Below are positions 25,184 to 56,217 of a stretch of 64,000 bases of DNA, piece by piece. The notes beneath the pieces were generated by a model, which saw nothing but the letters and a program-made list of their open reading frames with translations, was not told where the DNA came from and made no database searches. Position numbers and translations under genes: made by a program. The DNA comes from Marinagarivorans sp. (GTDB taxonomy: Bacteria > Pseudomonadota > Gammaproteobacteria > Pseudomonadales > Cellvibrionaceae): positions 1 through 64,000 of the forward strand of contig JANQJB010000116.1 of NCBI GenBank assembly GCA_028281865.1. The letters run 5' to 3'. The first letter of the stretch is position 1. Each line of letters starts with the position of its first letter.

Positions 25184-26575
25184 TTGGCTATGTCTCCCAA
25201 CGGGTGCCCGCCTTCAGGATCCACGCCTCCTGGCCATGCTATGTATGCTCTCGCTAAGCGATTATTCCCGATATGCAGGAGCATTACTGGAAACGGTTTT
25301 CGTCGTTCGCTTGAGATAATTGCGGAATATATTCCGGGCTTAAAAGTTTTTGAGGTTCCCAGCGGAACTCAAGTTTTTGATTGGACCGTTCCGAAAGAGT
25401 GGAATATTCGAGATGCCTATGTGATCGATCCCTCAGGTAAAAAGATAATCGATTTTAAAAATTCGAACCTCCACGTAATGGGGTACTCCACTCCGGTTGA
25501 TCAGAAAATGAGTTTAGATGCTTTACAGGGGCACTTGTATTCGCTACCTGAACAGCCCGATGCCATACCGTATATCACTTCTTATTATAAAGAGCGCTGG
25601 GGAATTTGTTTGAGTGAAAATCAACGCAGATCGCTTTCATCGGGTGAATATCACGTTGTCATCGATAGCGAACTTAAACCTGGCTCTCTTACTTATGGTG
25701 AAGTTGTAATTCCTGGAAGCAGTGAAAAAGAAATTTTCATTTCGACATATTTGTGCCATCCGTCAATGGCTAATGATGAGCTTTCTGGCCCTGTTGTTGT
25801 GACGGAATTGATAAAATATTTGTTTGCAAGTAGTGATAAAGAAAAGCTGCGTTATACGTATCGCTTTGTACTTATTCCCGAAACTATAGGCTCAATTACT
25901 TACTTAAGCCGCAATCTAAAACAACTGCAGAAAAACGTGATTGCAGGATTTAATATTAGTTGCGTCGGGGACAACCGTTGCTACTCATATCTATCTTCGC
26001 GGGCGGAGAATACACTCGCAGATCGAGCTGCCTTGCATGCACTTAAATTTACCGACCCAAATTTTAAACGTTACAGCTTTCTAGATCGCGGAAGCGATGA
26101 GCGACAATATTGTGCGCCGGGAATTGACTTGCCTGTGTGTTGTATCACGCGCTCGAAAATTAATGAATATCCAGAGTACCACACTTCCTTAGACGACTTA
26201 AATTTAATTTCTTCTGAGGGATTGCAGGGGAGCTTTGATGTGATTTTGAAGGCATTTCGATGTATAGAACTCAATGAATATTTAAAAATAAAAGTTCTAG
26301 GGGAGCCCCAACTCGGTAAGCGCGGAATGTACCCGACGATAAGTACGAAAGATACACGAGAACAAGTTGAGGATATGATGAATTTTATTGCCTATTTGGA
26401 TGGGCGCCTCAGTACCTTAGAGATTGCCGATAAAATAAATACACCACTTTGGTCACTGGAGGAAACAATCGCCAAACTTAAGAAACACGACTTAGTCGAA
26501 AGTGTCGCCTCGCCTTTGCCTAGTAATATCGATAATGTTGTTGAGTTAAACAATACTATTAAAAATATCGTATAG
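25184..26575 (+). CDS. DUF4910/M28-like peptidase-fold protein with C-terminal winged helix
   Basis: A protein of up to 463 residues of the DUF4910/DUF2172 family, aminopeptidase-like. Family segments are ALAKRLFPICRSITGNGFRRSL, VFDWTVPKEWNI and the metal-site strand FISTYLCHPSMANDELSGPVV (His and Asp). FVLIPETIGSITYL (Glu), RGSDERQYCAPGIDLPVC and EYPEYHTSLDD (His) follow. The last ~75 residues match the winged-helix domain that often follows (YLDGRLSTLEIADKI). Starts are possible at ATG 25184, 25190 and 25241; the conserved part begins at the last. Members are common in O-antigen and surface-sugar loci, where the activity is unproven. It faces the lipid/transketolase cluster. Confidence 0.85.
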   Translation: MAMSPNGCPPSGSTPPGHAMYALAKRLFPICRSITGNGFRRSLEIIAEYIPGLKVFEVPSGTQVFDWTVPKEWNIRDAYVIDPSGKKIIDFKNSNLHVMGYSTPVDQKMSLDALQGHLYSLPEQPDAIPYITSYYKERWGICLSENQRRSLSSGEYHVVIDSELKPGSLTYGEVVIPGSSEKEIFISTYLCHPSMANDELSGPVVVTELIKYLFASSDKEKLRYTYRFVLIPETIGSITYLSRNLKQLQKNVIAGFNISCVGDNRCYSYLSSRAENTLADRAALHALKFTDPNFKRYSFLDRGSDERQYCAPGIDLPVCCITRSKINEYPEYHTSLDDLNLISSEGLQGSFDVILKAFRCIELNEYLKIKVLGEPQLGKRGMYPTISTKDTREQVEDMMNFIAYLDGRLSTLEIADKINTPLWSLEETIAKLKKHDLVESVASPLPSNIDNVVELNNTIKNIV

Positions 26576-26849: not shown

Positions 26850-27641
26850 TTAAGCCGGCTCTTTTAATTTGATATAAATTAACTCGCGTTTGCTCGAAAT
26901 ATCATTAATCATAATGTCTGCCGCAGTCTTCATTTCGAGTGTGGAAAAATCAATGCCGTTTAGTTCAAATGTGTGATAGCAGCCGGCGTCGGCAAAGACT
27001 TTATCGGTAAGCTCGCTAATGCCTGTTCCAAGGGTTGTTTCTAGGTTGCGTACAAACATCGTATAGCGACGTTGAGATTGTTCTCCGTTGTTATCGATAT
27101 AGGTGCCATTAAACTCTTTAAAATAGCGATATTCGACATTGCACGCCTCTTCGCAATAGTGGTCGAGTGTCAGACCTTTGGAATAGTGAATACCAATAAA
27201 TAGATATTTCGCATTATTGCTTACCAAAAACTCGAAGGGAGAGTCCTTGGACCAGCCGTCAATATTATCCATTGCGCAAAGTGTATCAGCGTGCTTTCCC
27301 CACACAGCAAAAGAAAACATCGGGTGTTGCGTGCGTTTGAAATCTGGGTGCTTTAGCGCGGCGTTTGCTAATGCTCCCGTATTCGCAGGCGTTGATCGGA
27401 TATCAAAGATTTGTGTTTGACAAAACTCCCAAGAATAGCTTGGAAATAGCACGGTCCCTTCTGCGGTAATTTTGTCGAGAATCGAGTCGATAAACAATTT
27501 AGGATCAAACTTTTCGCCATTTTGTTTTGCCGCGATAAGTATTTTTAGGATATCTGACCCAACCAGAACGATATCGCCTTTTTTCAGCGGTAATTGGTCG
27601 GCGAGTTTTAAATACGGGATATAGGGCGTTTGCTTATACAT
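26850..27641 (-). CDS. AAC(3)-family N-acyltransferase
   Basis: A 263-residue protein of the aminoglycoside 3-N-acetyltransferase (Antibiotic_NAT) fold, which moves an acyl group from CoA to an amine. Typical segments are LPLKKGDIVLVGS, GTVLFPSYSW, RTQHPMFSFAVWGKHA, KDSPFEFL and the active-site stretch TLDHYCEE. Members in biosynthetic loci act on amino sugars or other amines rather than giving drug resistance. ATG 27641 is preferred: it overlaps the preceding stop by eight bases and has GAGGG about ten bases upstream, while a TTG at 27659 has no ribosome site. It is the last gene of the ten-gene cluster, which suggests a late acylation step. Confidence 0.85.
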   Translation of the reverse strand: MYKQTPYIPYLKLADQLPLKKGDIVLVGSDILKILIAAKQNGEKFDPKLFIDSILDKITAEGTVLFPSYSWEFCQTQIFDIRSTPANTGALANAALKHPDFKRTQHPMFSFAVWGKHADTLCAMDNIDGWSKDSPFEFLVSNNAKYLFIGIHYSKGLTLDHYCEEACNVEYRYFKEFNGTYIDNNGEQSQRRYTMFVRNLETTLGTGISELTDKVFADAGCYHTFELNGIDFSTLEMKTAADIMINDISSKRELIYIKLKEPA

Positions 27642-28608
27642 GAGATTTATAGCCCTCAATCGCGGATGTTGCGATACCTTCAGGTGTTAACTTGTGGTGC
27701 TCAAGAATGTCTTCGTATGCGCCAGATTTTTCATAGCTATCGTTTATGCCTAAAGCAATATGAGGTGGTTTATTCGCGATGCTAGCAGAGGCTTCCGCAA
27801 TCGCACTGCCCAAGCCTCCGATAACAGAGTGTTCTTCTACGCTGACGATAAGATTGACTTTCTTGCAAGTGTCACTAATAAGCGCCGCGTCGATGGGTTT
27901 AATAGTATGCATATTTATAACACTGCAGGACTTGCCGAATTGTTCTATTTTATGAGCAGCTTCTAGCGCTTTCGCGACCATAGTCCCACTTGCGAAAATA
28001 GCGATATCTTCTCCATCTTTTAAAACGATGCCTTTTCCAATTTCAAAATTGTAATCTTCGGTGTATACAATTTCAGCGTTTGCGCCACCTGTTAGGCGCA
28101 AGTAAACGGATTGCGGATGCTTTAAAGCTGCGGCTGTGGCTTTTGCTGTTTCGGCGCCGTCTGCTGGAGAAAGAATAGTTAAATTAGGGATGGAGCGCAG
28201 CACTCCAATATCTTCGACGCTACAATGCGAATATCCCAAATTCCCCAACACGACACCGCTAGCCAACCCTACAAACACGACTTTGTGTTGCATGTACGCC
28301 AAATTCATTTTTATTTGTTCGAGGCAGCGCAAGGTTTGAAATGGAGAAAATGTTGCGGTTACGACATTAAACCCTTCGCTCGCCATGCCCGCGGCTATGC
28401 CCATCATATTCTGTTCGGCTATGCCTGTATCGAGAAAATGTTCGCTATATTTTTTCTTAAAGCGGTCTAGGCCTGCCGAGGTAGACGTGTCGCCTGTTAA
28501 CACCATTAGATCGTCTACGCCGGGTGCGAGTTCAAACATAGCCATGCCAAAAGCCGCACGCGAACCAATACGCGAAAATAGGGTAGATTTTTTTTCGTCA
28601 ATTACCAT
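27634..28608 (-). CDS. Transketolase, C-terminal subunit
   Basis: A 324-residue protein holding the pyrimidine-binding and C-terminal domains of a split transketolase. Seen are RAAFGMAMFELA, DTGIAEQNMMGIAAGMASEGF (the TPP-activating Glu in the AEQ motif), SHCSVEDIGVLRSIPNLTI and the C-terminal VEEHSVIGGLGSAIAEA. Split forms usually act on substrates other than pentose phosphates. The start overlaps the stop of the N-terminal subunit by seven bases and has GAGGTG just upstream, so the two are made together in equal amounts. Confidence 0.94.
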   Translation of the reverse strand: MVIDEKKSTLFSRIGSRAAFGMAMFELAPGVDDLMVLTGDTSTSAGLDRFKKKYSEHFLDTGIAEQNMMGIAAGMASEGFNVVTATFSPFQTLRCLEQIKMNLAYMQHKVVFVGLASGVVLGNLGYSHCSVEDIGVLRSIPNLTILSPADGAETAKATAAALKHPQSVYLRLTGGANAEIVYTEDYNFEIGKGIVLKDGEDIAIFASGTMVAKALEAAHKIEQFGKSCSVINMHTIKPIDAALISDTCKKVNLIVSVEEHSVIGGLGSAIAEASASIANKPPHIALGINDSYEKSGAYEDILEHHKLTPEGIATSAIEGYKSHV

Positions 28609-29453
28609 GATTCACCTCGGCATTCTGTTGGCAGTTCTTCCATAGCCTTTTCATATTGAGAGCGACTGAGAACAGCGTGGTGCCAAGCATTATTATCTTC
28701 GCAAAAAGAAAAACCTTTTCCTTTGCGTGTGTGTGCGATAATTGCCAGAGGTTTTTCTTGTGGGCGCTCCTCAAGCAAAGCTTGTAATATGGCCTCAATA
28801 TCGTGCCCATCAATTTCGCGAACGAACCAATTAAAACTTCTGAATTTATCCGCGGCGTTGCCCAAATCCATAATTTGTTTATTACTGCCTGTTTGTTGCA
28901 AAGTGTTGCGATCGACAATAGCGACGACATTGTTTAGCTGGTAATGTGCTGCCGACATCGCTGCTTCCCATACAGACCCTTCGTTGCATTCACCGTCTCC
29001 CAAAATAACATATGAAATGCATTTGCGTTTCTTGATTCGATTTGTCAGCGCGACGCCGATCCCCAGCGATAGGCCCATACCCAAACTACCGTTAGAAAAC
29101 TCGATGCCTTTTGCACGATTTTTTACTGGGTGCCCTAATAAAAAACTGCCGGATTTTTCGAACGATAATAATTCCTCTTTTGTGATAACGCCGATATCAT
29201 AAAGAGCTGAGTAATAACCGAGGACTCCGTGACCTTTACTTAATATAAAGCGATCACGTTCCTTCCATTCAGGGTTATCAGTGTCGTATTTCATCACGTG
29301 ACCAAAAAGTGCTGCGCTAATATCGACAAACGACAAACCGCCGCCTAAATGTGAACTAAGAGCACCGGCCTCCAAAGCAACCTCTAAAATTGAGCGTCGC
29401 ATGCGGTTAGCCATATTGTTGATGCTGCTGACGATAGTTGGTTCTAGTTGCAC
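28602..29453 (-). CDS. Transketolase, N-terminal (TPP-binding) subunit
   Basis: A 283-residue thiamine diphosphate-binding subunit. The diagnostic TPP motif is present (GDGECNEGSVWEAAM ... AIVDRN), with DRFILSKGHGVLGYYSALYDIG upstream and GHDIEAILQAL after it. GTG 29453 is chosen because GGAGG lies exactly five bases before it; the in-frame TTG at 29465 lies before that ribosome site. With the next gene it forms a complete enzyme that moves a two-carbon ketol unit onto an aldehyde. In this cluster the aldehyde made by the LuxC-like reductase is an attractive acceptor, which is inference. Confidence 0.94.
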   Translation of the reverse strand: MQLEPTIVSSINNMANRMRRSILEVALEAGALSSHLGGGLSFVDISAALFGHVMKYDTDNPEWKERDRFILSKGHGVLGYYSALYDIGVITKEELLSFEKSGSFLLGHPVKNRAKGIEFSNGSLGMGLSLGIGVALTNRIKKRKCISYVILGDGECNEGSVWEAAMSAAHYQLNNVVAIVDRNTLQQTGSNKQIMDLGNAADKFRSFNWFVREIDGHDIEAILQALLEERPQEKPLAIIAHTRKGKGFSFCEDNNAWHHAVLSRSQYEKAMEELPTECRGESW

Positions 29454-29471
29454 AATAACCTCCAATACCTA

Positions 29472-30215
29472 TTACATCCCGCCGTCGGCACAAATGACTT
29501 GGCCGGTTATGTAACTCGAAAGGTCTGATAATAAAAATAACGCTACTGAAGCGATTTCTTCTGGTTTGGCTACGCGTTTTAATGCGAGGCGTTCTACCGT
29601 TTTTTCAAGAGCATCTGCGGGTGTACTGGAACTCATCATTTCGGTTTGGGTCAGCCCCGGTGCTATGGCATTAACGCGAATATTCGCTTGCCCCAGTTCG
29701 CGTGCCATAACTTTCGACGAGGTAATTAACGCCGCCTTTGCCCCAGCGTAAGCAATTCTACCTTCGTTACCTTCAATTGCCGCGCTCGATGAAATATTGA
29801 CGATTGATCCATTTTTGTGTCGCAACATTGAGCGTGCGATGATTTGTGAGAATATAATAGGCGAGAAGTAATTAATCTCGCTCATATTGCGCAAGGTTTC
29901 TGCTTTTGTCATTAATGCAGGCCCTGTTTCGATTAAACCGGCGTTATTGACCAATCCGCTAATGGGAATTTTTTCAGATGTTATTTGCTTGGCTGCGTTT
30001 TTGATAGAGTCCTCGTTGGCGAGGTCGAGCTCAATCACTTTAATTTGCACGTCGTGTTGCAGGGATAAGTCATTAATTTGCGCTAAGAGGTCCTCCGATT
30101 GATTTCGCATGCAGGCCCAAATATGTGCTCCTTGCGTCGCAAAAAGTTTGAGCATCGCCTTTCCAATGCCGCGATTGCATCCAGTAAGAATTATATTTTT
30201 TCCGCGCAACAACAT
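29472..30215 (-). CDS. SDR-family oxidoreductase (FabG-like)
   Basis: A 247-residue classical short-chain dehydrogenase/reductase. The cofactor loop is TGCNRGIGKA (11-20), NNAG is at 90-93, and the catalytic residues are near Ser143 with Tyr156 and Lys160 (YAGAK). The C-terminal IAPGLTQTEM and SSYITGQVICADGGM are typical of FabG-like reductases of 3-oxoacyl thioesters. It could equally reduce a ketone made by the neighbouring transketolase. AGGG precedes ATG 30215 at nine bases. It lies between the dehydratase and transketolase genes with gaps of 15 to 20 bases. Confidence 0.93.
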   Translation of the reverse strand: MLLRGKNIILTGCNRGIGKAMLKLFATQGAHIWACMRNQSEDLLAQINDLSLQHDVQIKVIELDLANEDSIKNAAKQITSEKIPISGLVNNAGLIETGPALMTKAETLRNMSEINYFSPIIFSQIIARSMLRHKNGSIVNISSSAAIEGNEGRIAYAGAKAALITSSKVMARELGQANIRVNAIAPGLTQTEMMSSSTPADALEKTVERLALKRVAKPEEIASVALFLLSDLSSYITGQVICADGGM

Positions 30216-30230
30216 AATTTCTAACCCTTT

Positions 30231-30722
30231 CTAATTTTTGGGTTTAAATTCTCGAATGGCTTCGGGCATGACAAAGCTAAATTCTACATCACAGGCTATC
30301 TCATCTTCGACTATTCCCCTGCCACGGCAAACTCCTACGCCTCTGCGCCAACTTTGCAGTTCGGTAAACATGCGGAAGCAGTCGCCTGGAATAACCTTGC
30401 GCCTTAAACGCATTTTGTTAACTGATGTCAAATAAACAATTTTCCCTTTGTTATCTGGCAGAGTTAATACAGTCAAAGCGGCGAGTTGAACTAAAGCTTC
30501 GGCTTGTAACATGCCGGGCATATTGGGGTCGCCGGGAAAGTGGCAATCGAAAAACCACAAATCTTCGTACATTCTCTTAAAACCCTTAGCACTTTTGCCG
30601 GGTATTATTTCATCCGCGCGATCGACTAATAAATAGGGAGGACGATTCTTTTGATACGCCAATAAGCCTTCTTGATCCAGGCACAGTGGGTTAAATACTT
30701 GATTTTCCAACGTTGCTACCAT
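30231..30722 (-). CDS. FabZ/FabA-like hotdog dehydratase
   Basis: A 163-residue hotdog-fold protein of the 3-hydroxyacyl-ACP dehydratase type. The catalytic His61 sits in FFDCHFPGDPNMPGML, and Glu75 is in the conserved place in the following helix (QAEALVQLAAL). The second strand set (VYLTSVNKMRLRRKVIPGD) also matches FabZ. It should act on an acyl group held by the cluster's ACP, either as a true dehydratase or as a related thioester enzyme. AGG lies seven bases before the start. Confidence 0.88.
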   Translation of the reverse strand: MVATLENQVFNPLCLDQEGLLAYQKNRPPYLLVDRADEIIPGKSAKGFKRMYEDLWFFDCHFPGDPNMPGMLQAEALVQLAALTVLTLPDNKGKIVYLTSVNKMRLRRKVIPGDCFRMFTELQSWRRGVGVCRGRGIVEDEIACDVEFSFVMPEAIREFKPKN

Positions 30723-30747
30723 CTTTGTACCTATTATTTTTTGCCTT

Positions 30748-31974
30748 CTAACGTAATGAAATTTCGCGTGATAATTGTCGAATCAAATCCATGCCGTCCC
30801 ATAAGGTGTTAATATCAAGTGCTTGCCCGACTGGAACAATGCGGTCAATTCCGCGAATATTAGATTTCAATATCCATTGTTTTAGAGAATCGATGTCGAC
30901 TCCAAAATAACAGAGGGTTTGAAATTTCTCATTAATTAGGAGGTTTAATTCATCAAGCTGCTTGATATGAAATTCATAAATGGCGCCATTGCCTATACGC
31001 AAAGCGCTTAACGAAGGTGAAATTTTGTTTACTGCGATTCGGTAAAGGTGGTTTTGTTTTTGGTCCGACGTTAGCGTGGCTTCCGCACCGTCGAAGTCTT
31101 CTGAAGCGCCAACAAGAAGCTGGGTAAATTTTGAAACGGCGGCACTATGATTTAGCGAATGTCGTTTTCTAACTATGCTTTCGAACGCGGACCAAAAACG
31201 TTTTTCGCTGTCATCTTCTCGGTTTGTCCAAATAATCAAATGAGGAGAAGAACATGCGTTTTGATTCAACGTATATACGTCATTGTAAAAATTTTCTGCA
31301 AAGCGATTAAGTTCGCTGAAATTTAGATGTCCAACAGATTTTGCATCGAGCATTGCGAAAGAGTAGCGGTCGGCAAATGCGACGTCCCGCGCACGCGCGG
31401 GAATGGGAAACTTGCGAATTTTCTCTATCGTAGAGTCCCCGCCCCAGATAACGCGTGCATCACAGTTTTTTGAATATCCCTCCGTTGTTTGCTCATCGTC
31501 TGATGGATAACGGACAAACGAAATGAGTTCGCGTAGAGAAGAAAATAGCTTTTCCTTAATAAGTTCGTTGATAACGTCCAGCAGAATTTTTTCTTGCGGA
31601 CTTTGTCTGGAGGGCAGGCGCACAGTGTTGGCGTTTCCAGCTAATAAACCAAAGCACAGTGAATAGAAAAAATTTAAAGGGACATTGGCCGGTGTAATGT
31701 GAAATACCTTTCCCAGACCTTGATAGATATTTTGCTTGTTGCTAGTTCTAGAAAATTGAATTTTTAGTTTTTCGATGTTTGCCGGACGACACCAAAAAGC
31801 CAGACTTGCTAAATCGGGATAATCTTTTATGGAACCGTGGCGTTGAAGTCTTTGGCTAATCGCAATTAAAAAATTTACAACACCTTGATCAAATACCTCG
31901 CGAGGGTAGGTAAGGGCTTTGATTTTTTCATTTTTCTCTTCAGTTTGTGGTGCTAAAAATGTGTTAGCTAACAT
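30748..31974 (-). CDS. LuxC-like acyl-CoA/acyl-ACP reductase
   Basis: A 408-residue member of the LuxC family, an aldehyde dehydrogenase-fold enzyme that reduces activated acyl groups to aldehydes with NADPH. Matching segments are GLGKVFHITPANVPLNFFYS, GLLAGNANTVRLPSR, RVIWGGDSTIEKIRKFP and LNQNACSSPHLIIW, whose Cys is the likely acyl-thioester residue. ATG 31974 is preferred because a G-rich ribosome site (AGGGGGTG) lies before it. A longer form from 32058 would overlap LuxE by 95 bases. With LuxE it forms the two-part fatty-acid reductase known from luminous bacteria, but luciferase genes are absent. Confidence 0.9.
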   Translation of the reverse strand: MLANTFLAPQTEEKNEKIKALTYPREVFDQGVVNFLIAISQRLQRHGSIKDYPDLASLAFWCRPANIEKLKIQFSRTSNKQNIYQGLGKVFHITPANVPLNFFYSLCFGLLAGNANTVRLPSRQSPQEKILLDVINELIKEKLFSSLRELISFVRYPSDDEQTTEGYSKNCDARVIWGGDSTIEKIRKFPIPARARDVAFADRYSFAMLDAKSVGHLNFSELNRFAENFYNDVYTLNQNACSSPHLIIWTNREDDSEKRFWSAFESIVRKRHSLNHSAAVSKFTQLLVGASEDFDGAEATLTSDQKQNHLYRIAVNKISPSLSALRIGNGAIYEFHIKQLDELNLLINEKFQTLCYFGVDIDSLKQWILKSNIRGIDRIVPVGQALDINTLWDGMDLIRQLSREISLR

Positions 31975-33034
31975 CGCTGCACCCCCTGAGTTCAGCTTGT
32001 GCTGCTCTGCCAAGTGCCTGAAAAGTTTTTCCCTTGCGGCCGCAGGGGCAGTCATCAATGCCTATTATTTTACCCATATCTTCAGTAAGAATGTTGTGCC
32101 CGGGATAACTTCCCGGTAACAATGACAACAGCTGGATTAAACCATTTTCGCCATGTCCGCATAATTGAAAATGTTCATCGCGTATCAAAATATCGGAATA
32201 ATTTGAACAGTGTAGTCGGCCCTCTTCACACTCCATAAAGATCGAGCCAGTTTGCTCCACCATGCCATAATAATTGTGCACACGCGTGATATTGCAAAGC
32301 GATTTTAGTTTTTCTTTGTAAGCGTGGTTACTAATAGCTTTGCTCTCCAGTTTTTTCCAGCCTCCACCATGAATTAACGTTGCTTGAGATAAGTCGTAGT
32401 TCAAATTGCGTTTTTCGAGCTCACTAATAAATTTTTCGTAAATAAATGAAGTAAAGCCAAAGATTAAAAATGGCTCGTGAGAAAATTTCGAATGAAATTC
32501 GTGTAGAGTATTTTCGTTAAAGCTCAAGTCGCCATTTAATAAAAAATATTGCGATTTTGCGAAAATAGAAAATCCGCGTATTGCTGCGGTTCTTGCGGAA
32601 AATGCACTGCGTTTTTTAATCGTATCTATCGTATCAATAATTAACATCGGTAGGCGCTTGCCACCGATAAAATCCTTGACGATTTTTGATAAAACTTTGG
32701 TTTGTTTGTTGGCTGTTTTTTTATCGAGAAATATTTTGGAAACCTGTTGCCCTGAAGTTCCAGACGAAGTCATTGTTTTAACTATGTCTTCGTTTTTTAT
32801 GCTGTACAATTCTTTGTGCTTAAACAATTGAACCGGAAGATACTGCGCATCGCTCAACTGCTTTACGGGTTTGTCAGAACCTAGGAAATTGATGATGTTT
32901 TGATAGGGTGCACAATTCTCGTAGTGGTGCTGATTTAGGTAGTTTATGCGGTTTAAAAACAGTTTGTTTTTTTCCGCTTCTTTCAAAGCGAATGGCGCGC
33001 ATTGGTCGATTGTTTCGATGGTGTCAGCGAACAT
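31964..33034 (-). CDS. LuxE-like acyl-protein synthetase
   Basis: A 356-residue protein of the LuxE family, which activates a carboxylic acid with ATP and passes the acyl group to LuxC. The P-loop-like segment MTSSGTSGQQVSKIFLD and FLIFGFTSFIYEKFI, VHNYYGMVEQTGSIFMEC and CPCGRKGKTFQALGRAAQ near the end are family features. ATG 33034 is chosen because GAGAGGG lies just before it and it falls ten bases after the upstream stop; starts further up would overlap the ligase gene. The C-terminal CxxG Cys pair is typical of this family. It overlaps luxC by 11 bases. Confidence 0.9.
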   Translation of the reverse strand: MFADTIETIDQCAPFALKEAEKNKLFLNRINYLNQHHYENCAPYQNIINFLGSDKPVKQLSDAQYLPVQLFKHKELYSIKNEDIVKTMTSSGTSGQQVSKIFLDKKTANKQTKVLSKIVKDFIGGKRLPMLIIDTIDTIKKRSAFSARTAAIRGFSIFAKSQYFLLNGDLSFNENTLHEFHSKFSHEPFLIFGFTSFIYEKFISELEKRNLNYDLSQATLIHGGGWKKLESKAISNHAYKEKLKSLCNITRVHNYYGMVEQTGSIFMECEEGRLHCSNYSDILIRDEHFQLCGHGENGLIQLLSLLPGSYPGHNILTEDMGKIIGIDDCPCGRKGKTFQALGRAAQAELRGCSDVS

Positions 33035-33044
33035 TTGCCCTCTC

Positions 33045-34478
33045 TTAGGCAGAGACAAATTCTTGGAGTTTTGGGTAAAGTACTTTTCCTGCCGCATTGC
33101 GTGGTATTGCGTTAACATGAATCACATTGATGCAGCGGGGATTAATGTTTAAAAGCTGTTTTGTTTGATTAAATATTGTGTGTTTTTCGACATCTGCATG
33201 GACATAAATTATCAGTTCATCGTCTTGTCCTGCACAGGCACAGTCAAAGCCACTTTGGCTTAGCTGCTGCTCGACAAACTCTAAATTGACGCGATGACCA
33301 TAAAGTTTAATAAAACGCTTTTTGCGTCCGACGATGTAGTAATAACCATCGTTGTCGCAGTAAGCTATATCGCCTGTTTTCAGAATACCCTGGTTGCGAT
33401 CTCCAAGCATTAAATCGTTTTTGTTTTTCGCATAGCCCAAGCTTACGTTTGCGCCCTGAAAAATAAGTTCACCTTCTTCGTACGCTGCTTTGACATGTCC
33501 GTCTTCATCAATAATTCGAAAGCTTCCGCTATTAATGGGTTTGCCAATGCTTTTTAATTTGTTTTCGTGATCGTTTGCAGAAAGAATTGACATTCGCGCA
33601 GTCGCCTCTGTCTGGCCGTACATGATAAAGAACTTAAGCTCTTTGACTTTGCAGGTTTTTGCGAAATATTGCGCTGTGTTTGTATCGAGTTTTCCTCCAG
33701 CTTGGGTAATATATTTAAGTGACGGAACATCAATTGAAGAAAACTTGATTTTTTTTAGCATTTCATAATTAAACGGCACTCCGCCAAAGTTGTTGACGCG
33801 CTGTGTTCTTATTAACTTCCAAAAATCGTTACGCATCATAGCGTGTGGGTTTAAGACGATTGATGCTCCGGAGTATAAGTGTGTATTAATTATTGAAAGC
33901 CCGTAAGTATAGCTTGGCGGGAGTGTTGTTATTGCGCGATCAGCATCGGAAATATTTAAGCCGTCACATATGGCTTGTGTGTTGGCGATCAGGTTTTGGT
34001 AACTTATGCGGACAAAATTGGGTTCGCCGGTGGAGCCAGATGTGCTTAGCAGCAATGCCAAATCAGGATGTAAATCTAAGTTTGACCAGGGCGTTTTAAA
34101 AAGATATGTGGCTCGATTGGCTATTCTTTCTGTCAAACGTATTTTATTGAGTGGAATGGAAATGGAGCTAATCTCTGTATGAGAAAAAATGAGCGAGGGC
34201 TCAAAGAGTGTAACGACATCTTGTAGTTGGTTGTCACTCGTATTTCCGGGGAGCAGCATTACGGCACAACCCAGTCGCATAAAACCGATGTAAGCGCAGA
34301 TAGATTCGACTGTATTTTCAGCGAGTATTAAAATTAGGGAGCGAGATTTAACCTGATCTTCAGAATATAATGTTGCTATAGCTTGCGATAAATATTTTAC
34401 ATCCTCGTAGCTGTAATGCCTGCCGTGTTCGTTGATAAGACAAGTAGCTTCGGGTTTCGCGTTGGCTAGCCAATCCAT
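33045..34478 (-). CDS. AMP-forming acyl ligase (ANL superfamily)
   Basis: A 477-residue adenylate-forming enzyme. The core motifs are present: the P-loop LLSTSGSTGEPNFVRIS, TTLPPSYTYGLSI, the YGQTEATARMSI motif A5 and GELIFQGANVSLGYA with LKTGDIAYCDNDGYYYIVGRKKRFIKLYG. A final catalytic Lys is present in NAAGKVLYP. It probably activates an acid and loads it on the cluster's ACP or on CoA. Having both this ligase and LuxE suggests either two acids or two activation steps. GTG 34481 would add one residue. Confidence 0.92.
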   Translation of the reverse strand: MDWLANAKPEATCLINEHGRHYSYEDVKYLSQAIATLYSEDQVKSRSLILILAENTVESICAYIGFMRLGCAVMLLPGNTSDNQLQDVVTLFEPSLIFSHTEISSISIPLNKIRLTERIANRATYLFKTPWSNLDLHPDLALLLSTSGSTGEPNFVRISYQNLIANTQAICDGLNISDADRAITTLPPSYTYGLSIINTHLYSGASIVLNPHAMMRNDFWKLIRTQRVNNFGGVPFNYEMLKKIKFSSIDVPSLKYITQAGGKLDTNTAQYFAKTCKVKELKFFIMYGQTEATARMSILSANDHENKLKSIGKPINSGSFRIIDEDGHVKAAYEEGELIFQGANVSLGYAKNKNDLMLGDRNQGILKTGDIAYCDNDGYYYIVGRKKRFIKLYGHRVNLEFVEQQLSQSGFDCACAGQDDELIIYVHADVEKHTIFNQTKQLLNINPRCINVIHVNAIPRNAAGKVLYPKLQEFVSA

Positions 34479-34501
34479 CACATTTGCGCTCTTTTAAAGG
34501 T

Positions 34502-35593
34502 CTAGGCTAACGATGAACGCGCGATAATCGATTCATCTTGCTCGGGCAAAACTCTCTCCTCAGGGCCAAAAATATCCTTGGCGTGGCGAGGATTAAAGAT
34601 TGATGTGCCGTCTTTCATCATATATTTTGTGACGAACTCTTTGTCCTCTCCGGCAAGACAAAGACTAGAGTGTTCGCGAAACTTCTTAATACTGAAACCG
34701 AATTCGGATATTTCTTGTAAGCTCTGTTCAAATACATTTCCGAGTTTTATATGTACGTAAGGGCAAGCGAGTACGTCCCCGAGAGGCGTAACGTATAAAC
34801 GATTGACGGTATTGCAACCGAGTACTCCTTCGTAGTTGCGGTCGAAGGGATTCCACAAATTGCGCAATATGTTTTTATATTTTTTACGCATTTCTATTAG
34901 ATGGGCTTTATCTTCCTCATCCACCATGATGTCCGAGAGTTTCTGCCACATACCGGCGGGTGTCGCGACATTTAATAATGTGGTGTAGTTGTGATCTTTT
35001 GAATATTCTAAAAGCTGTTGCACGTCCTCAGACTGGGCATTGTAGTGACCAACAGTGATATTTAAGTAAGGCGTCATCCCGGCATCCTGCACATGTTGCA
35101 GTGCCGCCATTGCTCGGCGCCAAGAATCTTTTTTCCCGCGAAATTCATCGTGTACTTCTGGCTTCATGCTATCGATGCTGACGGAGACACGATCAATCCC
35201 AGCATCTGAGAGTTTTTCTGCCATTGGCGCATCTAGATGCCAGCCGTTTGTAGTGAGATACATATAGAAGCGTTCAGTTTTTATTGCTTTTAACGTATCA
35301 AAAAGAATTTGGGGTCGTAATAGCAATTCTCCTCCTTGTAAATCCCACTCAAATATCCCAAGCTCGTGTGCTTGATCTGCGATTTCAGCAACCTTTGCCG
35401 CAGGTAGCACGGGTTTAACATGGTCACCTTTTGGAGAGTTGGTAAAGCAGTGTTCACAACGCAAATTGCAGGCGTTGTTGAGGTTTAGGTCTATGCCGCG
35501 CTGTTTCGTACCAATTTGGCCGTTATTTTTTTTCACATAGTCGTGAAAAGCACGAAACTTTTTAAATACAATCGGTTTTTGCATCAGGGCCAT
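34502..35593 (-). CDS. Radical SAM protein with short C-terminal Cys extension
   Basis: A 363-residue radical SAM enzyme. The cluster motif CNLRCEHC supplies Cys42, Cys46 and Cys49, followed by the GGE-like segment DLQGGELLLRP near residue 85 and YLTTNGWHLDAPMA. The C-terminal part has only three more cysteines that could bind an auxiliary cluster (Cys260, Cys277 in DVLACPY, and Cys312), fewer than a full SPASM domain, so it looks like a twitch-type extension. The substrate is unknown; in this setting it may modify the ACP-bound acyl chain or a coupled amine. AAGGAGG sits seven bases before the start, the strongest ribosome site of the cluster. Confidence 0.9.
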   Translation of the reverse strand: MALMQKPIVFKKFRAFHDYVKKNNGQIGTKQRGIDLNLNNACNLRCEHCFTNSPKGDHVKPVLPAAKVAEIADQAHELGIFEWDLQGGELLLRPQILFDTLKAIKTERFYMYLTTNGWHLDAPMAEKLSDAGIDRVSVSIDSMKPEVHDEFRGKKDSWRRAMAALQHVQDAGMTPYLNITVGHYNAQSEDVQQLLEYSKDHNYTTLLNVATPAGMWQKLSDIMVDEEDKAHLIEMRKKYKNILRNLWNPFDRNYEGVLGCNTVNRLYVTPLGDVLACPYVHIKLGNVFEQSLQEISEFGFSIKKFREHSSLCLAGEDKEFVTKYMMKDGTSIFNPRHAKDIFGPEERVLPEQDESIIARSSLA

Positions 35594-35630
35594 AACGCAG
35601 CCTCCTTAACAGACTAAAATCAATGACCGT

Positions 35631-35870
35631 TTAAATCGCTACTTGGTATTTTTGTAGAATTTCCTTACCCTTTTGGAAAGAAGAAAAATCGACGATATCG
35701 TCAGTGTCGAGCGAAATATTGAAGGCATCTTCAAGCGCTGACATGAGTGACATATGACCTATCGAATCCCACTCAACAATAGTGTTGTATTCCAGCTCTT
35801 CGTTAAATTCGTTTTCTTCAATGCTTAAGCCTTCGATAAAGGCTTGGCGATAAATATCGTCGTTGGACAT
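35631..35870 (-). CDS. Acyl carrier protein
   Basis: A 79-residue acidic protein with the four-helix carrier pattern. Ser36 in WDSIGHM is the expected phosphopantetheine site. The sequence is closer to carrier proteins of modification and secondary pathways than to AcpP. ATG 35870 is preferred because GGAG lies nine bases upstream; the ATG at 35888 lies before it. It is the first gene of the minus-strand cluster, so the promoter should be just above 35890. No other carrier protein or ketosynthase is in the window. Confidence 0.9.
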   Translation of the reverse strand: MSNDDIYRQAFIEGLSIEENEFNEELEYNTIVEWDSIGHMSLMSALEDAFNISLDTDDIVDFSSFQKGKEILQKYQVAI

Positions 35871-35888
35871 ATCGGAACATCTCCGCAT

Positions 35889-37535
35889 GAAAAAAGTTTG
35901 GTTAATTCGTTGTCGCCGTCAATCGTCAATAACTCAAACAGAATGACTAAATCACAACAAACAAAGCAAAAAGCGATCCCAGAGCGATAGAGCGTTAAAA
36001 CCACGCGTCTTGGCGCACAAATCTCGCTTTTCCAGGCCTGTTAGTCATCGGCGCTCTAAAGGTTATCGGCCAAATTTAGTTTTGCTATACGATTATTCGA
36101 CCGCATGAACAAATATAGTCAATAACTTGGCGGTATTCGAGGTAAAGGGCAAAATAATGTGGGGCTGACAATAATCTATATGTAATCAATAGTTTCCTCT
36201 TGGTATATTTAGGTCTGGCAAGACCTGCCAATCGCTCAAGTGCGAGAGCTACTCGCTTGGTGTCAATGATCCGTATGCCTTAGGAGGCTCTAGCGTATCG
36301 GCTGCAGTCTTTGGGCGAACGCGTTTTCGTGACACGTTGATGTAACTTCGTGTTAGCCGAGCATCTCCAGGTGTCCTCAAATATCTCTTACTCTCGCCAC
36401 TAGGGTTTCTCATGGCCAGCTGTGTGCTGGTTTGTCGGTTGCTTAGCACTGAGCTTGGTTCATAGCTAGCTTGGGTAGGGTGCTTTTTGAGGTCATCCTA
36501 GGCGGGTCGTACCTAAGAAGAGATAAGGACCACGGTTGATTTTGAGTTGCTGGAAACAGCTAAATCAGGAAAATTTAATTTAACCCCTAACTCACGACGT
36601 TGTGCCCTTGCTTAATTTTGACTGTTAGGTTAACTAGCTTTGATCTGTTTTTAAGGTTTGGGCTATTTAGCTGAGTTGATAAGCCTACGCCGTAGCTGCA
36701 GAAAAATAATAATTTTTCCAGTGGTTCAAAATAGTTTTGTAGGGCTTTGTTTAGATTGGCAGCTAAGTTGATTGAATAATATTGGTTGTTACCATTGTTT
36801 ATTTGGGTCGTATTCATATGGATAACAATGCTTGATGGGCCGGATCGCTTATTCCCGATGCCTCCGAAAGTATTATATCTAAATCCAGCTAATTAGATTT
36901 AGCTGGATTTAGATTGCGGATATTAACGATCGTTTATATAAGCTTCGATATTATATTGATATGACGAAGTGCCTACCTCCTAGTTCGTGAGTTTGAGCTA
37001 ACTTTCTTTAAAATTGACTTTGTAGTCGACCTCTTGTTTGTATAGAGTCTGTCGTCGTTTTTTTGTTCAGATTGACTAATTAATTTTCTTTTTGTTGATA
37101 TTTTCTCTCTATTTTTAAATAAACAATTTTGTTGTTGACTCCCCGTCTAAGACCGTTCAAAATTTCGATAAATATGTTAATTTTAATTATTAAAGTTAAC
37201 TTAATGGCACGGAAATAATCTTTGTTAAATAGGGTATTTATGTAGATCTTATCTAAGTCTAGGGTGTTTTTCTCTGTACCTGGGATCCAGGGCTGCGTTG
37301 TATCGTTATTAGGAATAGGAGTGGGTAGTTATGTAAAACTAATCATTTGGAAAATTCATCCCTCAAAAATATTTCGATATTTTGCTAGACAATGTTAGCT
37401 GGCAGATGGTCTTTTGTTTTCTCAATATTTGATTTATAGGAAATCTCCTTAATTTTATTAGGGTGGTGATTTTATATGGAAATGTTTTTATTTATGTTTG
37501 AACTTTACTAATAGGTGATGGAAATGGAACATATT
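35889..37535. other. 1.6-kb gene-poor AT-rich region
   Basis: No gene is supported. Two short minus-strand frames (36249-36449 and 36587-36817) look random. The right part, from about 36950, is strongly AT-rich. The only clear structure is a perfect inverted repeat at 36877-36914. The acp promoter should lie at the left end and the RCC1 gene promoter at the right. It may hold decayed mobile DNA, which cannot be shown. Confidence 0.5.
36877..36914. repeat. Perfect 16-bp inverted repeat
   Basis: ATCTAAATCCAGCTAA at 36877-36892 pairs exactly with its reverse complement at 36899-36914 across a six-base loop (TTAGAT). There is no T-run, so it is not a standard terminator. It stands alone in a gene-poor stretch. 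Confidence 0.92.
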
Positions 37536-39794
37536 ATGAATATAAGTATGCGAATAAAATATAAGCTTTTTTTCTCGATTTTTATTCTTCTGGGGTCTTT
37601 TTTAATTTCGACATCAACTGCCTTTGCTTACACCAAAGTTGATGCTGGAGAGCACACTACCTGTGCGATTGATACTGACCAAAAGGTTTATTGCTGGGGT
37701 GACAATTGGGGAGGGCAATTAGGGACCGGTAGCTTAGGAGGTCATACTACTGAACGAACATCAGCGGTTGTGGGGTTGACCGGTGTAATTGATATCGCCG
37801 TGGGTGGTACGAGCAATTATACTGGTGGGCACGCTTGTGCAGTTAAAAATGACGGTACCGTTTGGTGTTGGGGCAATGATGATAACGGTTTGCTGGGCAA
37901 CGGTACTTATGCAAATGAACCGGCATTTTCTAGCACGCCTGTGCAAGTGGTGGGAGTAACTAATGCAATAAAGGTTAGTGCAGATATAGATCACACTTGC
38001 GCACTTAAATCGACAGGTACGGTAGTTTGTTGGGGTGATAACGCGGTTGGTCAAATGGGGAATGGCACCACAACTGGCCTGGGTCAAAATTCCCCTGTTG
38101 CGGTTAGCAATTTAGCCGATGTTGTGCAGATTTCTGCAGGGCTAGGGTTTACTTGTGCCGTTAAAGATAATGGTTCGGTTTGGTGTTGGGGTGCTGCGAC
38201 ATATGGCCGTATGGGGACCGGCAGTACTAACCCAGCTCCGCAGCTTGTGCCTGTTCAAGCAAGCATATCCAGCGTTGTTGAAGTTTCAACTGGCGATTCA
38301 CATGTTTGTGCCGTTAGATCGGATCAGTCACTATGGTGCTGGGGTAATGGAGCAAATGGGCGTTTAGGTAACGGATTCACCACAACTCAATACTCTCCAG
38401 TACTCGTGAGTAGTTTGACTGGCGTAACGAGTGTTTCTTTGGGCTACTTTCACAGCTGCGCTGTAAAAACTGACGAAACTGCTTGGTGTTGGGGGCACGG
38501 CACTTATGGTCAGCTCGGCCGAGGAACTTTTACACATAGTTATACCCCTGTGGAAGTAGAGTTGCCAGGAGTGACGCATATTTCAGGTGGTCGCGGCTAC
38601 ACTTGTGCTCTTAGAGGTGGAATAAACATTTTTTGCTGGGGGGAAGGGTATAAAGGTAAATTGGGTATCGATAATATTTCCAATCGGTCGTTGCCTGGAG
38701 GCATAGATAGCATATTGGCTATTAGCGCCGGTGGTAACCATAGCTGTGCTGTCAAAAGCACTAATGAAGCTTTTTGTTGGGGAAGAAATCAATATGGGCA
38801 ACTAGGCAACGATACGACGATAGAGCAACACAAACCGGTAAAAGTGCATAATTTGTCCAACGTTATTGCTGTCGAAGCTGGTGATTATCATAGCTGTGCA
38901 CTAAAAGGTGACCAGACAGTTTGGTGCTGGGGTTCCAATGGTAGCTCGGGGAAGCTGGGTATCGGTTCTTCAGTTAGCGGCAGTATTTCTGACGTTCCAG
39001 TTCAAGTGAATAGTTTGACTGGAGTAACAAAAATAGCTGTTGGTTCTAGCCATACATGTGCAGTTAAATCTGATGGCACCGTCTGGTGTTGGGGTTACGG
39101 CGCGTATGGTGAGCTTGGTAATGGTGATGACAATTCTGAATCGGCCCCCGTTCAAGTGCTCAACCTAAACAACGCCCAAGATGTTACTGCAGGTGTTAGA
39201 GGGACATGCGCGTTGACGACTGTTGGAGAGGTATGGTGTTGGGGGCGGGCTAAGTTTGGCCAGATTGGCTCGGGAACTTGGGTAAATGAAGTGACTTTTC
39301 CAATAAGAGTAAAAACTAATTCCTCTACTGTTCTGACAAATGTTGCCAGTATTTCTTCTGGCCCTGGCAGTTCACACCGTTGTGCGGTAAAAAATGATGG
39401 TACAGCGTGGTGCTGGGGGTCGGGTAACTATGGCAGGCTAGGTAATGGCACCCACTATAATAAAGCGTATGCCACACAAGTAAGTAATTTGACAAACGTA
39501 ACCGAAATAGCCACGGGTAGTACGCATACTTGTGCAATAGAGTCTAACGGCTCGTCGTGGTGTTGGGGGCGAGGCACCTCAGGTCAAGCCGGCTACCCTA
39601 CGGGATATACATCAATACTTACTCCTCGGCTGGTTACTGATGGTGATGACTTTTTAGCGATATCTGCGGCTGGTAGTAGATCTTGTGCACTAAGGGAATT
39701 TTTAGGTTATTGCTGGGGTGCTGGTAGTTACGGTGGTTTAGGTTATGGTGGCACCTCAAATAAAGATATACCCGAACCTATCTTCGCATTTTGA
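37536..39794 (+). CDS. Secreted RCC1/BLIP-II-type beta-propeller protein, 14 repeats
   Basis: A 752-residue secreted protein. After a Sec signal peptide (cleavage after STAFA) the whole protein is 14 RCC1-type repeats of about 50 residues. Each has the form C-A-[VLI]-x6-8-C-W-G-x4-6-G-x-[LMI]-G. Almost all repeats carry two cysteines at fixed spacing (CA ... CWG), so each blade could hold one disulfide, suiting the cell exterior. Fourteen repeats would give two seven-bladed propellers. Several ATG/GTG codons (37515, 37518, 37524, 37536, 37548) are possible starts; 37536 is preferred because GGAA lies seven bases before it. The ligand is unknown. Confidence 0.9.
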   Translation: MNISMRIKYKLFFSIFILLGSFLISTSTAFAYTKVDAGEHTTCAIDTDQKVYCWGDNWGGQLGTGSLGGHTTERTSAVVGLTGVIDIAVGGTSNYTGGHACAVKNDGTVWCWGNDDNGLLGNGTYANEPAFSSTPVQVVGVTNAIKVSADIDHTCALKSTGTVVCWGDNAVGQMGNGTTTGLGQNSPVAVSNLADVVQISAGLGFTCAVKDNGSVWCWGAATYGRMGTGSTNPAPQLVPVQASISSVVEVSTGDSHVCAVRSDQSLWCWGNGANGRLGNGFTTTQYSPVLVSSLTGVTSVSLGYFHSCAVKTDETAWCWGHGTYGQLGRGTFTHSYTPVEVELPGVTHISGGRGYTCALRGGINIFCWGEGYKGKLGIDNISNRSLPGGIDSILAISAGGNHSCAVKSTNEAFCWGRNQYGQLGNDTTIEQHKPVKVHNLSNVIAVEAGDYHSCALKGDQTVWCWGSNGSSGKLGIGSSVSGSISDVPVQVNSLTGVTKIAVGSSHTCAVKSDGTVWCWGYGAYGELGNGDDNSESAPVQVLNLNNAQDVTAGVRGTCALTTVGEVWCWGRAKFGQIGSGTWVNEVTFPIRVKTNSSTVLTNVASISSGPGSSHRCAVKNDGTAWCWGSGNYGRLGNGTHYNKAYATQVSNLTNVTEIATGSTHTCAIESNGSSWCWGRGTSGQAGYPTGYTSILTPRLVTDGDDFLAISAAGSRSCALREFLGYCWGAGSYGGLGYGGTSNKDIPEPIFAF

Positions 39795-55411: not shown

Positions 55412-56217
55412 TTCGGCGAAGTTTTCTCGAATTTCTGATTTAGATAGTCTTTTTTGCGTGAGACAGGTTAGAGCTTTGTTGCGCGCTTGTCTATTACCTA
55501 GCTTATCGAAAATGGCAAACCTGCTTTTTGGCTCCAGCGTATATTGCTTTGACGAATGCTTCCCCGTCGAATTTATACACACGTTGTGGTTGGCTAGTGA
55601 ATTTGACAAGTAAAATGTTCCCGTCAAAAGTATGGCAAGAATAAGGTATAAAGTATTTGACTAACACGATTATCGGATTTTTGACTAGCTTATTAAGACT
55701 CTAAATAATCAAAAATTTTTATATTTTAATTTCTATATCATTTGTTAAGTTACAGAACAATTGAAAAAAGATACCTGGTATTTTTATTTAGATTTTTTTG
55801 TTTTTTAAATACTAATGTTATTGCAAATTGGGTTAAGATATTTTGCTTCAATTAGTAATGCCCGGTTTTTATAGGGATTGATTAGGAGGTGTTTCATTTT
55901 TTATTTTTGTATGATGAATATTTATAAAACCCTTATAAAACAATAGTCTAGCGAAATTAAAACGCTTGTCTCGTCAATAAGTTGTCATTTTTTAGCGCTA
56001 TTTATTTTAATTATTTTTTTTTAGTAGCGAATTTAAATTAAATTTGTCGTTTTCTTTAAATCTGCATATTAATGCGTCAATAGTGCGTCCTAATTCTTAT
56101 TTTGTTAACTAAAAAATCCTAGAAAATCCGTGTCTATACTCGAAATACGCAGTTGTACGTTTGTACGATTTTTTTATTTTCGTCTTTATTTTTTTACAAG
56201 GAATTGGGAGCTTATTT
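55412..56217. other. AT-rich gene-free region before the giant lipoprotein gene
   Basis: About 800 bases with long A/T runs, especially 55680-56060. No gene is convincing. The stretch just before the next ATG carries AAGGAATTGGGAG, a good ribosome site. Such AT-rich leaders often bind H-NS-like proteins, which is only a suggestion here. Confidence 0.45.

Follow-up and report, generated by a model that had tools for sequence, protein, structure and literature searches.

The nearest assigned pathway to the operon described here is, judged from the parts of the published accounts available to us, that of tetronate in the Vibrio cholerae O1 O-antigen. The operon comprises ten genes of Marinagarivorans sp. 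(Cellvibrionaceae) in a 64,000-nucleotide stretch of DNA (GenBank assembly GCA_028281865.1, contig JANQJB010000116.1, positions 1 to 64,000 of the forward strand), which we call the window. It joins genes for an acyl carrier protein (ACP), an adenylate (AMP)-forming ligase, LuxE- and LuxC-type proteins and a two-chain transketolase (TK) with those for a radical S-adenosylmethionine (SAM) protein, a FabZ-like dehydratase, a short-chain dehydrogenase/reductase (SDR) and an AAC(3)-fold acyltransferase. The accessible parts of the reports on V. cholerae O1 list an ACP (RfbK), an AMP ligase (RfbL) and a protein with a LuxE domain (RfbN) among the O-antigen genes and mention no TK, radical SAM protein or FabZ-like dehydratase there (PMC4772473; PMC12208996). 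By these gene descriptions, the window shares the ACP, the AMP ligase and LuxE/LuxC with the O1 genes but also has an SDR, and its LuxE and LuxC are separate.

For a split TK that acts on a semialdehyde, AziC5/C6 is a direct precedent. In the AziC3-C6/vazabitide route to DADH, which leads to azinomycin, a carboxyl group is converted to a semialdehyde and a two-gene TK then adds two carbons (PMC9570651). That route differs from the window in using a kinase and an acyl-phosphate reductase instead of LuxE/LuxC, in its amino-acid substrate, in its need for an aminotransferase and in yielding a secreted antibiotic. The split TK of Carboxydothermus has the same two-chain architecture as that of the window and accepts a broad range of aldehydes (PMC7661550) but, unlike the window TK, retains the Asp469, His461 and Arg91 positions.

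A very similar published gene set is an insert in the flagellar cluster of Dickeya zeae EC1 (W909_12275-12315), with LuxC, LuxE, a FadD-like ligase, TktA, TktB, two FabG, an ACP and an acetyltransferase; its authors gave no function and judged a flagellar link unlikely (PMC4522980). No radical SAM protein, FabZ or DUF4910 protein is listed for this insert, and its acetyltransferase is of the maltose O-acetyltransferase type. The group II flagellin islands of Aeromonas carry ACP, 3-oxoacyl-ACP reductase, AMP synthetase, luxE and luxC genes beside pse genes (PMC7874193), but a TK, present in the window, is not reported for them. Enterobacterial and Aeromonas flagellin islands with ACP/LuxE/LuxC have been interpreted as carrying fatty-acid genes (PMC4875605; PMC7874193). 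Given the near-copy in D. zeae, the azinomycin step and the V. cholerae O1 genes, as far as the latter are described in the parts available, an initial annotation of the window went too far in stating that it knew of no described pathway combining these genes.

Results

Among the variants of what appears to be a cassette for a carrier-bound building block, widespread in bacteria, the window operon is the radical-SAM subtype. Its ten genes occupy positions 26850-35888 of the minus strand, with intergenic gaps of 6-37 bases and otherwise overlaps; the lengths of two overlaps (AMP ligase/LuxE, 74 bases; LuxE/LuxC, 95 bases) vary with the choice of start codon. The initial annotation had placed a ten-gene cluster at 26850-35870. 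All ten open reading frames are present and the named families were confirmed, nine by Pfam matches well over the cut-offs and the ACP by its motif; the cluster is real, but the ACP frame extends to 35888. Most of the genes occur in similar order in a Kordiimonadales metagenome-assembled genome (MAG), SAR324, Elusimicrobia, a Myxococcota MAG and SAR11, and in 52 of 53 loci LuxC and the C-terminal TK subunit (TK-C) share a strand, which argues against a chance arrangement. Promoter and terminator scans of the operon were at or under chance level, so that the case for cotranscription is made by gene spacing. The G+C content of the cluster (0.40-0.45) lies inside the range of the window (0.36-0.52), giving no sign of recent foreign origin.

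The N-terminal TK subunit (TK-N; 28602-29465, minus strand) contains the thiamine diphosphate (ThDP)/PP domain (PF00456 Transketolase_N, 138 bits; match to 6yak at E 7e-64), and TK-C (27634-28608, minus strand) contains the Pyr and TKC domains (PF02779 Transket_pyr, 122 bits; PF02780 Transketolase_C, 88 bits). Residue positions were assigned by alignment to TktA of the same genome and to the Carboxydothermus split TK (6yak/6yaj). The ThDP-binding and catalytic residues are in place: TK-C keeps the invariant Glu65 and His128, the GDGE motif is present, and the equivalents of Glu411 and His473 are retained in all 51 LuxC-linked TKs. The classical TktA sugar-acceptor residues are absent from the window TK. 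The positions of E. coli Asp469 and His461, the latter a sugar-phosphate contact, are occupied by Leu124 and Ala116 in TK-C, and that of Arg91 by Glu103 in TK-N; in the LuxC-linked TKs, Asp469 and His461 are each found in 0 of 51 TK-C and Arg91 in 0 of 49 TK-N. In E. coli TK, substitutions of Asp469 break the Asp469-Arg91 salt bridge and shift activity to non-polar aldehydes (PMC5073344). To judge from these residues, the pockets of the LuxC-linked TKs resemble those of TKs engineered for non-sugar aldehydes, a likeness that is supportive although not unique. A scan of viral contigs with TK-N returned only split TKs of other kinds, which served as a comparison set; four IMG/VR contigs of 186-548 kb (L059, L060, L061, L063) have adjacent split TK genes, several of them without the sugar-acceptor Asp.

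LuxC of this type is uncommon among close relatives: within the genus and family, none was found besides the window copy. It was found in 10 other genomes of a 390-genome sample of the order (7 at E <1e-30) and in 4 other genomes of a 369-genome sample of the class (3 of them strong matches). A 10-sequence LuxC alignment was scanned against about 85,000 species genomes, with at least 557 confirmed loci, of which we retained the best 80, so that counts over the 80 loci refer to the best matches to the window LuxC and include near-copies that are not independent. ACP, AMP ligase, LuxE and LuxC recur among these 80 loci; TK genes are present in 49 of them and a single-chain acetolactate-synthase-like enzyme in 13. 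This core together with the TK pair is present in at least 12 named phyla, SAR11 included, and the gene set, for which the initial annotation had advised a search in other genomes, is thus not unique to the window.

The two ThDP enzymes do not coincide. The 64 loci of at least 12 kb comprise 44 with TK, 12 with the acetolactate-synthase-like enzyme, 8 with neither and none with both (hypergeometric P of 4e-8 for the non-overlap, uncorrected for kinship). In the LuxE+LuxC tree, the acetolactate-synthase-like type requires at least seven changes forced by starred branches, and the ThDP type is not the same in sister loci from SAR324, Rhodocyclaceae and gammaproteobacteria. The order and class samples, which were not ranked by similarity to LuxC, yielded 11 LuxC loci, with a TK pair in four, a pyruvate dehydrogenase (PDH)-E1-like ThDP pair in four more distant ones and no nearby ThDP gene in three. 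These data suggest that one slot of the cassette, filled by different ThDP-dependent carbon-carbon ligases, accompanies the LuxE/LuxC core. The mutually exclusive and repeatedly swapped ThDP types beside a constant core are also the main reason to think that the product of LuxC meets a ThDP enzyme.

In L116 (11903-14760) and 12 further loci (e.g., L079, L114, L120 and L137), the acetolactate-synthase-like enzyme, beside an atypical NeuB-like synthase, takes the place of TK. NeuB-like and FabZ-like genes accompany it in each of the 12 loci of at least 12 kb that have it, and representative proteins of both kinds score under all acetolactate-synthase, NeuB and PseI cut-offs. This variant is possibly a route to unusual ulosonic acids. 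Some Clostridia loci and one Chromatiales locus (L080, L095, L104, L106, L128) also have a 3-ketoacyl-ACP synthase III (KAS III)-like gene in the cassette, which suggests a malonyl-extended acid in those variants.

The LuxC-type acyl-thioester reductase (30748-32058, minus strand; PF05893, 104 bits) and the LuxE-type acyl-protein synthetase (31964-33118, minus strand; PF04443, 184 bits) carry the lux-type catalytic and C-terminal Cys, respectively. Cys269 of LuxC, in the motif ACSSP, aligns with the active-site Cys region of a LuxC structure (PDB 7xc6) and is conserved in relatives; Cys380 of LuxE is a Cys in 84 of 84 relatives. The C-terminal Cys of LuxE is expected to transfer the acyl group to LuxC. 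In five Planctomycetota loci (L094, L101, L109, L132, L088), LuxE and LuxC matches are fused in one open reading frame of about 800 amino acids, which we counted in favour of a joint pathway from acid to aldehyde to ketol. When phage sequences were scanned with LuxE, a single weak match resulted. A LuxE-like gene on a Salmonella plasmid (CP053580.1, 57321-76358; L161), where LuxE-like, AMP-binding and PaaK-like genes are consecutive near a HlyD/peptidase-ABC exporter and a transposase, was set aside (26% identity, different neighbourhood).

The AMP-forming acyl ligase (33045-34481, minus strand; PF00501 AMP-binding, 162 bits) has an A4 motif without the Asp that binds the amino group in nonribosomal peptide synthetases (NRPS), and Arg296, after the YGxTEA motif, is conserved in all 70 relatives; the substrate is therefore more likely an acid that lacks an alpha-amine. 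The ACP (35631-35888, minus strand) gave no match in the Pfam search and only weak NCBIfam matches (NF002150), but its phosphopantetheine motif (Trp40-Asp41-Ser42, in WDSIG) is conserved across 60 sequences of its family. Ser42 is conserved in relatives, as are His61 and Glu75 of the FabZ-like hot-dog dehydratase (30231-30722, minus strand; PF07977 FabA/Z, 71 bits). The SDR (29472-30215, minus strand; PF13561 adh_short_C2, 196 bits) is FabG-like.

The radical SAM protein (34502-35593, minus strand; PF04055 Radical_SAM, 94 bits, and PF13186) has a SPASM-like domain. Its CxxxCxxC motif (Cys 42, 46, 49) and Cys 260, 277 and 312 are invariant in 17 of 17 sequences. The AlphaFold model is of low confidence (mean predicted local distance difference test score, pLDDT, 67), and its structural matches, which go no further than the overall radical SAM fold, give no hint of function. 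Cassettes with this protein, 59-77% identical to that of the window, occur in SAR11, SAR324, a Myxococcota MAG titled 'Deltaproteobacteria', Elusimicrobiota, alphaproteobacterial MAGs and the gammaproteobacterium 45_16_T64, which is closest to the window in the LuxE+LuxC tree (starred branch). One SAR11 locus (L141) has the single run DUF4910-AAC3-LuxE-LuxC-FabZ-rSAM-SDR-TKN-TKC-ACP, with the AMP ligase divergent upstream and NeuB downstream.

In 45_16_T64 and a second genome of its order (L049/L121 and L050/L051), the cassette lies among flagellar genes, near FliS, FliD, FleQ, FliF or FliG in one or both genomes, DegT and a GT41/HMW1C-like transferase. Neighbours in other relatives are NeuB, CMP-transferases, 4,6-dehydratases, glycosyltransferases and NeuD/GNAT acyltransferases, and PseC and PseI score over the cut-off in two cassette loci. 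The initial annotation had considered that homologous clusters might always belong to a flagellin-glycan or similar pathway with a defined product; many cassettes do lie in flagellin-glycan or nonulosonate loci, but the TK type has no defined product. Some relatives are thus in surface-glycan loci as in V. cholerae O1, whereas no glycan genes adjoin the window copy, for which a surface-glycan role is suggested by these relatives.

The AAC(3)-fold N/O-acyltransferase (26850-27659, minus strand, alternative ATG start at 27641; PF02522 Antibiotic_NAT, 96 bits) has counterparts adjoining the same cassette in seven loci (L081, L084, L111, L139, L141, L146, L150). Its identification as an antibiotic-resistance enzyme was rejected (best NCBIfam score 47 against a cut-off of 270 bits, and under every AAC(3) cut-off). 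The curated NCBIfam long-chain lux cut-offs were likewise not reached by LuxC (24 against 750 bits) or LuxE (66 against 550 bits). As all these cut-offs are missed by a wide margin, the AAC(3)-, LuxC- and LuxE-like proteins of the window are, by their scores, fold relatives and not orthologues of resistance and bioluminescence enzymes. Convergent with the operon is a gene (25184-26575, plus strand) for a DUF4910/DUF2172 M28-like metallopeptidase-fold protein with a C-terminal winged helix (HTH_47; Pfam, 342 bits). It probably belongs to the system, because the AAC(3)-like gene has a homologue of it alongside in L139 and L141 (both SAR11) and in L081 (Lachnospiraceae), and a Kordiimonadales MAG has one in its cassette locus (L085).

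On the other side, a gene for a 759-amino-acid RCC1-repeat protein with nine repeats (37515-39794) adjoins the cassette on the opposite strand. An AraC-type regulator is encoded near the cassette. A very long open frame of more than 2600 amino acids (56161-63999) extends past the window edge.

Discussion

The gene content, conservation, catalytic residues, co-occurrence and ThDP enzyme exchange described above are those of a real, conserved and functionally coherent cassette. For its function, we favour, with a probability of roughly 0.5, a serial route in which aldehyde formation is followed by two-carbon ketol extension, yielding a surface-type building block; we infer in what order the enzymes act, on which substrates, and which molecule is the final acceptor. 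The AMP ligase would charge the ACP with a carboxylic acid, for which dicarboxylic and hydroxy acids are candidates, and the radical SAM, FabZ and SDR proteins may modify it. LuxE would turn a carboxyl group into a thioester, LuxC would reduce the thioester to an aldehyde, and the split TK, with its remodelled acceptor pocket, would extend the aldehyde by a two-carbon ketol unit to a dihydroxyketone-type chain. The AAC(3)-fold transferase would finally hand the finished acyl group from the ACP to the amino group of a surface sugar, with the DUF4910 protein as a possible hydrolase partner. As a tentative refinement, which we consider doubtful, a dicarboxylate might be bound to the ACP through one of its carboxyls and be reduced by LuxE/LuxC at the other; this would account for the two adenylating enzymes.

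The initial annotation had already proposed an aldehyde extended by TK. Co-location, exclusive ThDP partners and the lost sugar-acceptor residues give this idea strong support, all of it comparative, and its suggested coupling of the product to an amine or sugar is plausible. Several observations weigh against the serial route. Co-location is no proof that TK acts on the LuxC product, the 80 loci, selected for the likeness of their LuxC to that of the window, form a biased set, and 8 of the 64 long loci have neither ThDP enzyme. Some split TKs of virus contigs also lack Asp at the 469 position, so that its loss is not exclusive, and the radical SAM protein has no assigned role. In addition, no glycosyltransferase, aminotransferase or flagellar gene adjoins the window copy, and the three NeuB genes of the genome are on other contigs.

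It is conceivable, although unlikely, that two activities run in parallel, with ACP/ligase/LuxE/LuxC making an acyl or hydroxyacyl (tetronate-like) group for a glycan and the ThDP enzyme separately converting a keto- or aldo-sugar into another sugar of that glycan, branched or elongated. ThDP-dependent branching of 4-keto sugars is known (yersiniose, eurekanate) and fits such a division, as do the three of 11 sampled LuxC loci without a nearby ThDP gene and the five-gene ACP/SDR/ligase/LuxE/LuxC module without a reported TK in the Aeromonas group II islands (PMC7874193). Parallel activities sit poorly with the tight operon, in which TK directly follows the SDR, with the loss of the sugar-acceptor residues in every linked TK and with the repeated swapping of ThDP types while the LuxE/LuxC core stayed constant. 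A free small molecule (a signal, a siderophore-like compound or an azinomycin-like metabolite), protected by AAC(3)-like acylation, is less probable still as the product: the window copy is isolated from glycan genes, with the AraC-type regulator nearby, and the secreted antibiotic azinomycin follows the same aldehyde-plus-TK logic, but no transporter, NRPS or polyketide synthase gene was seen beside the window cassette, many related cassettes are in flagellar or nonulosonate loci, and SAR11, despite its small genomes, retains the cassette beside NeuB.

The family names, and the liposugar suggested in the literature, would favour a fatty-aldehyde pathway in which LuxE/LuxC reduce long-chain fatty acids for a lipidated glycan, as proposed for the Enterobacteriaceae and Aeromonas islands. 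We regard this as very improbable given the scores far under the long-chain cut-offs; moreover, neither a LuxD thioesterase nor luciferase genes were found among the annotated open reading frames of the cluster and its flanks, and the Aeromonas glycan mass requires only C4 (102 Da) units. A 102 Da unit of unassigned structure and a 376.14 Da pseudaminic derivative have been reported for the flagellin of Aeromonas AH-3. Dihydroxybutanoyl (C4H6O3) has a mass of 102.032 Da and, swapped for one acetyl of Pse5Ac7Ac, gives a computed mass of 376.148 Da; the 102 Da unit may be a C4H6O3 group such as dihydroxybutanoyl, although other C4H6O3 groups match equally.

The serial route, if correct, would mean that mass spectrometry has left unassigned a surface building block that is made by a cassette of SAR11, gut Firmicutes, Bacteroidota, Synergistota, Planctomycetota and others. 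More broadly, and more speculatively, ordinary acids bound to an ACP might, across phyla, be built into sugar-like polyhydroxy chains by a general route of carboxyl-to-aldehyde conversion and ThDP-dependent C2 addition with interchangeable ThDP enzymes, giving surface-glycan substituents that do not come from nucleotide sugars. The serial route would also account for the LuxC/LuxE genes of non-luminous bacteria and provide a natural source of TKs that accept non-sugar aldehydes, and it would translate masses left unassigned, among them the 102 Da unit of Aeromonas, into testable structures.

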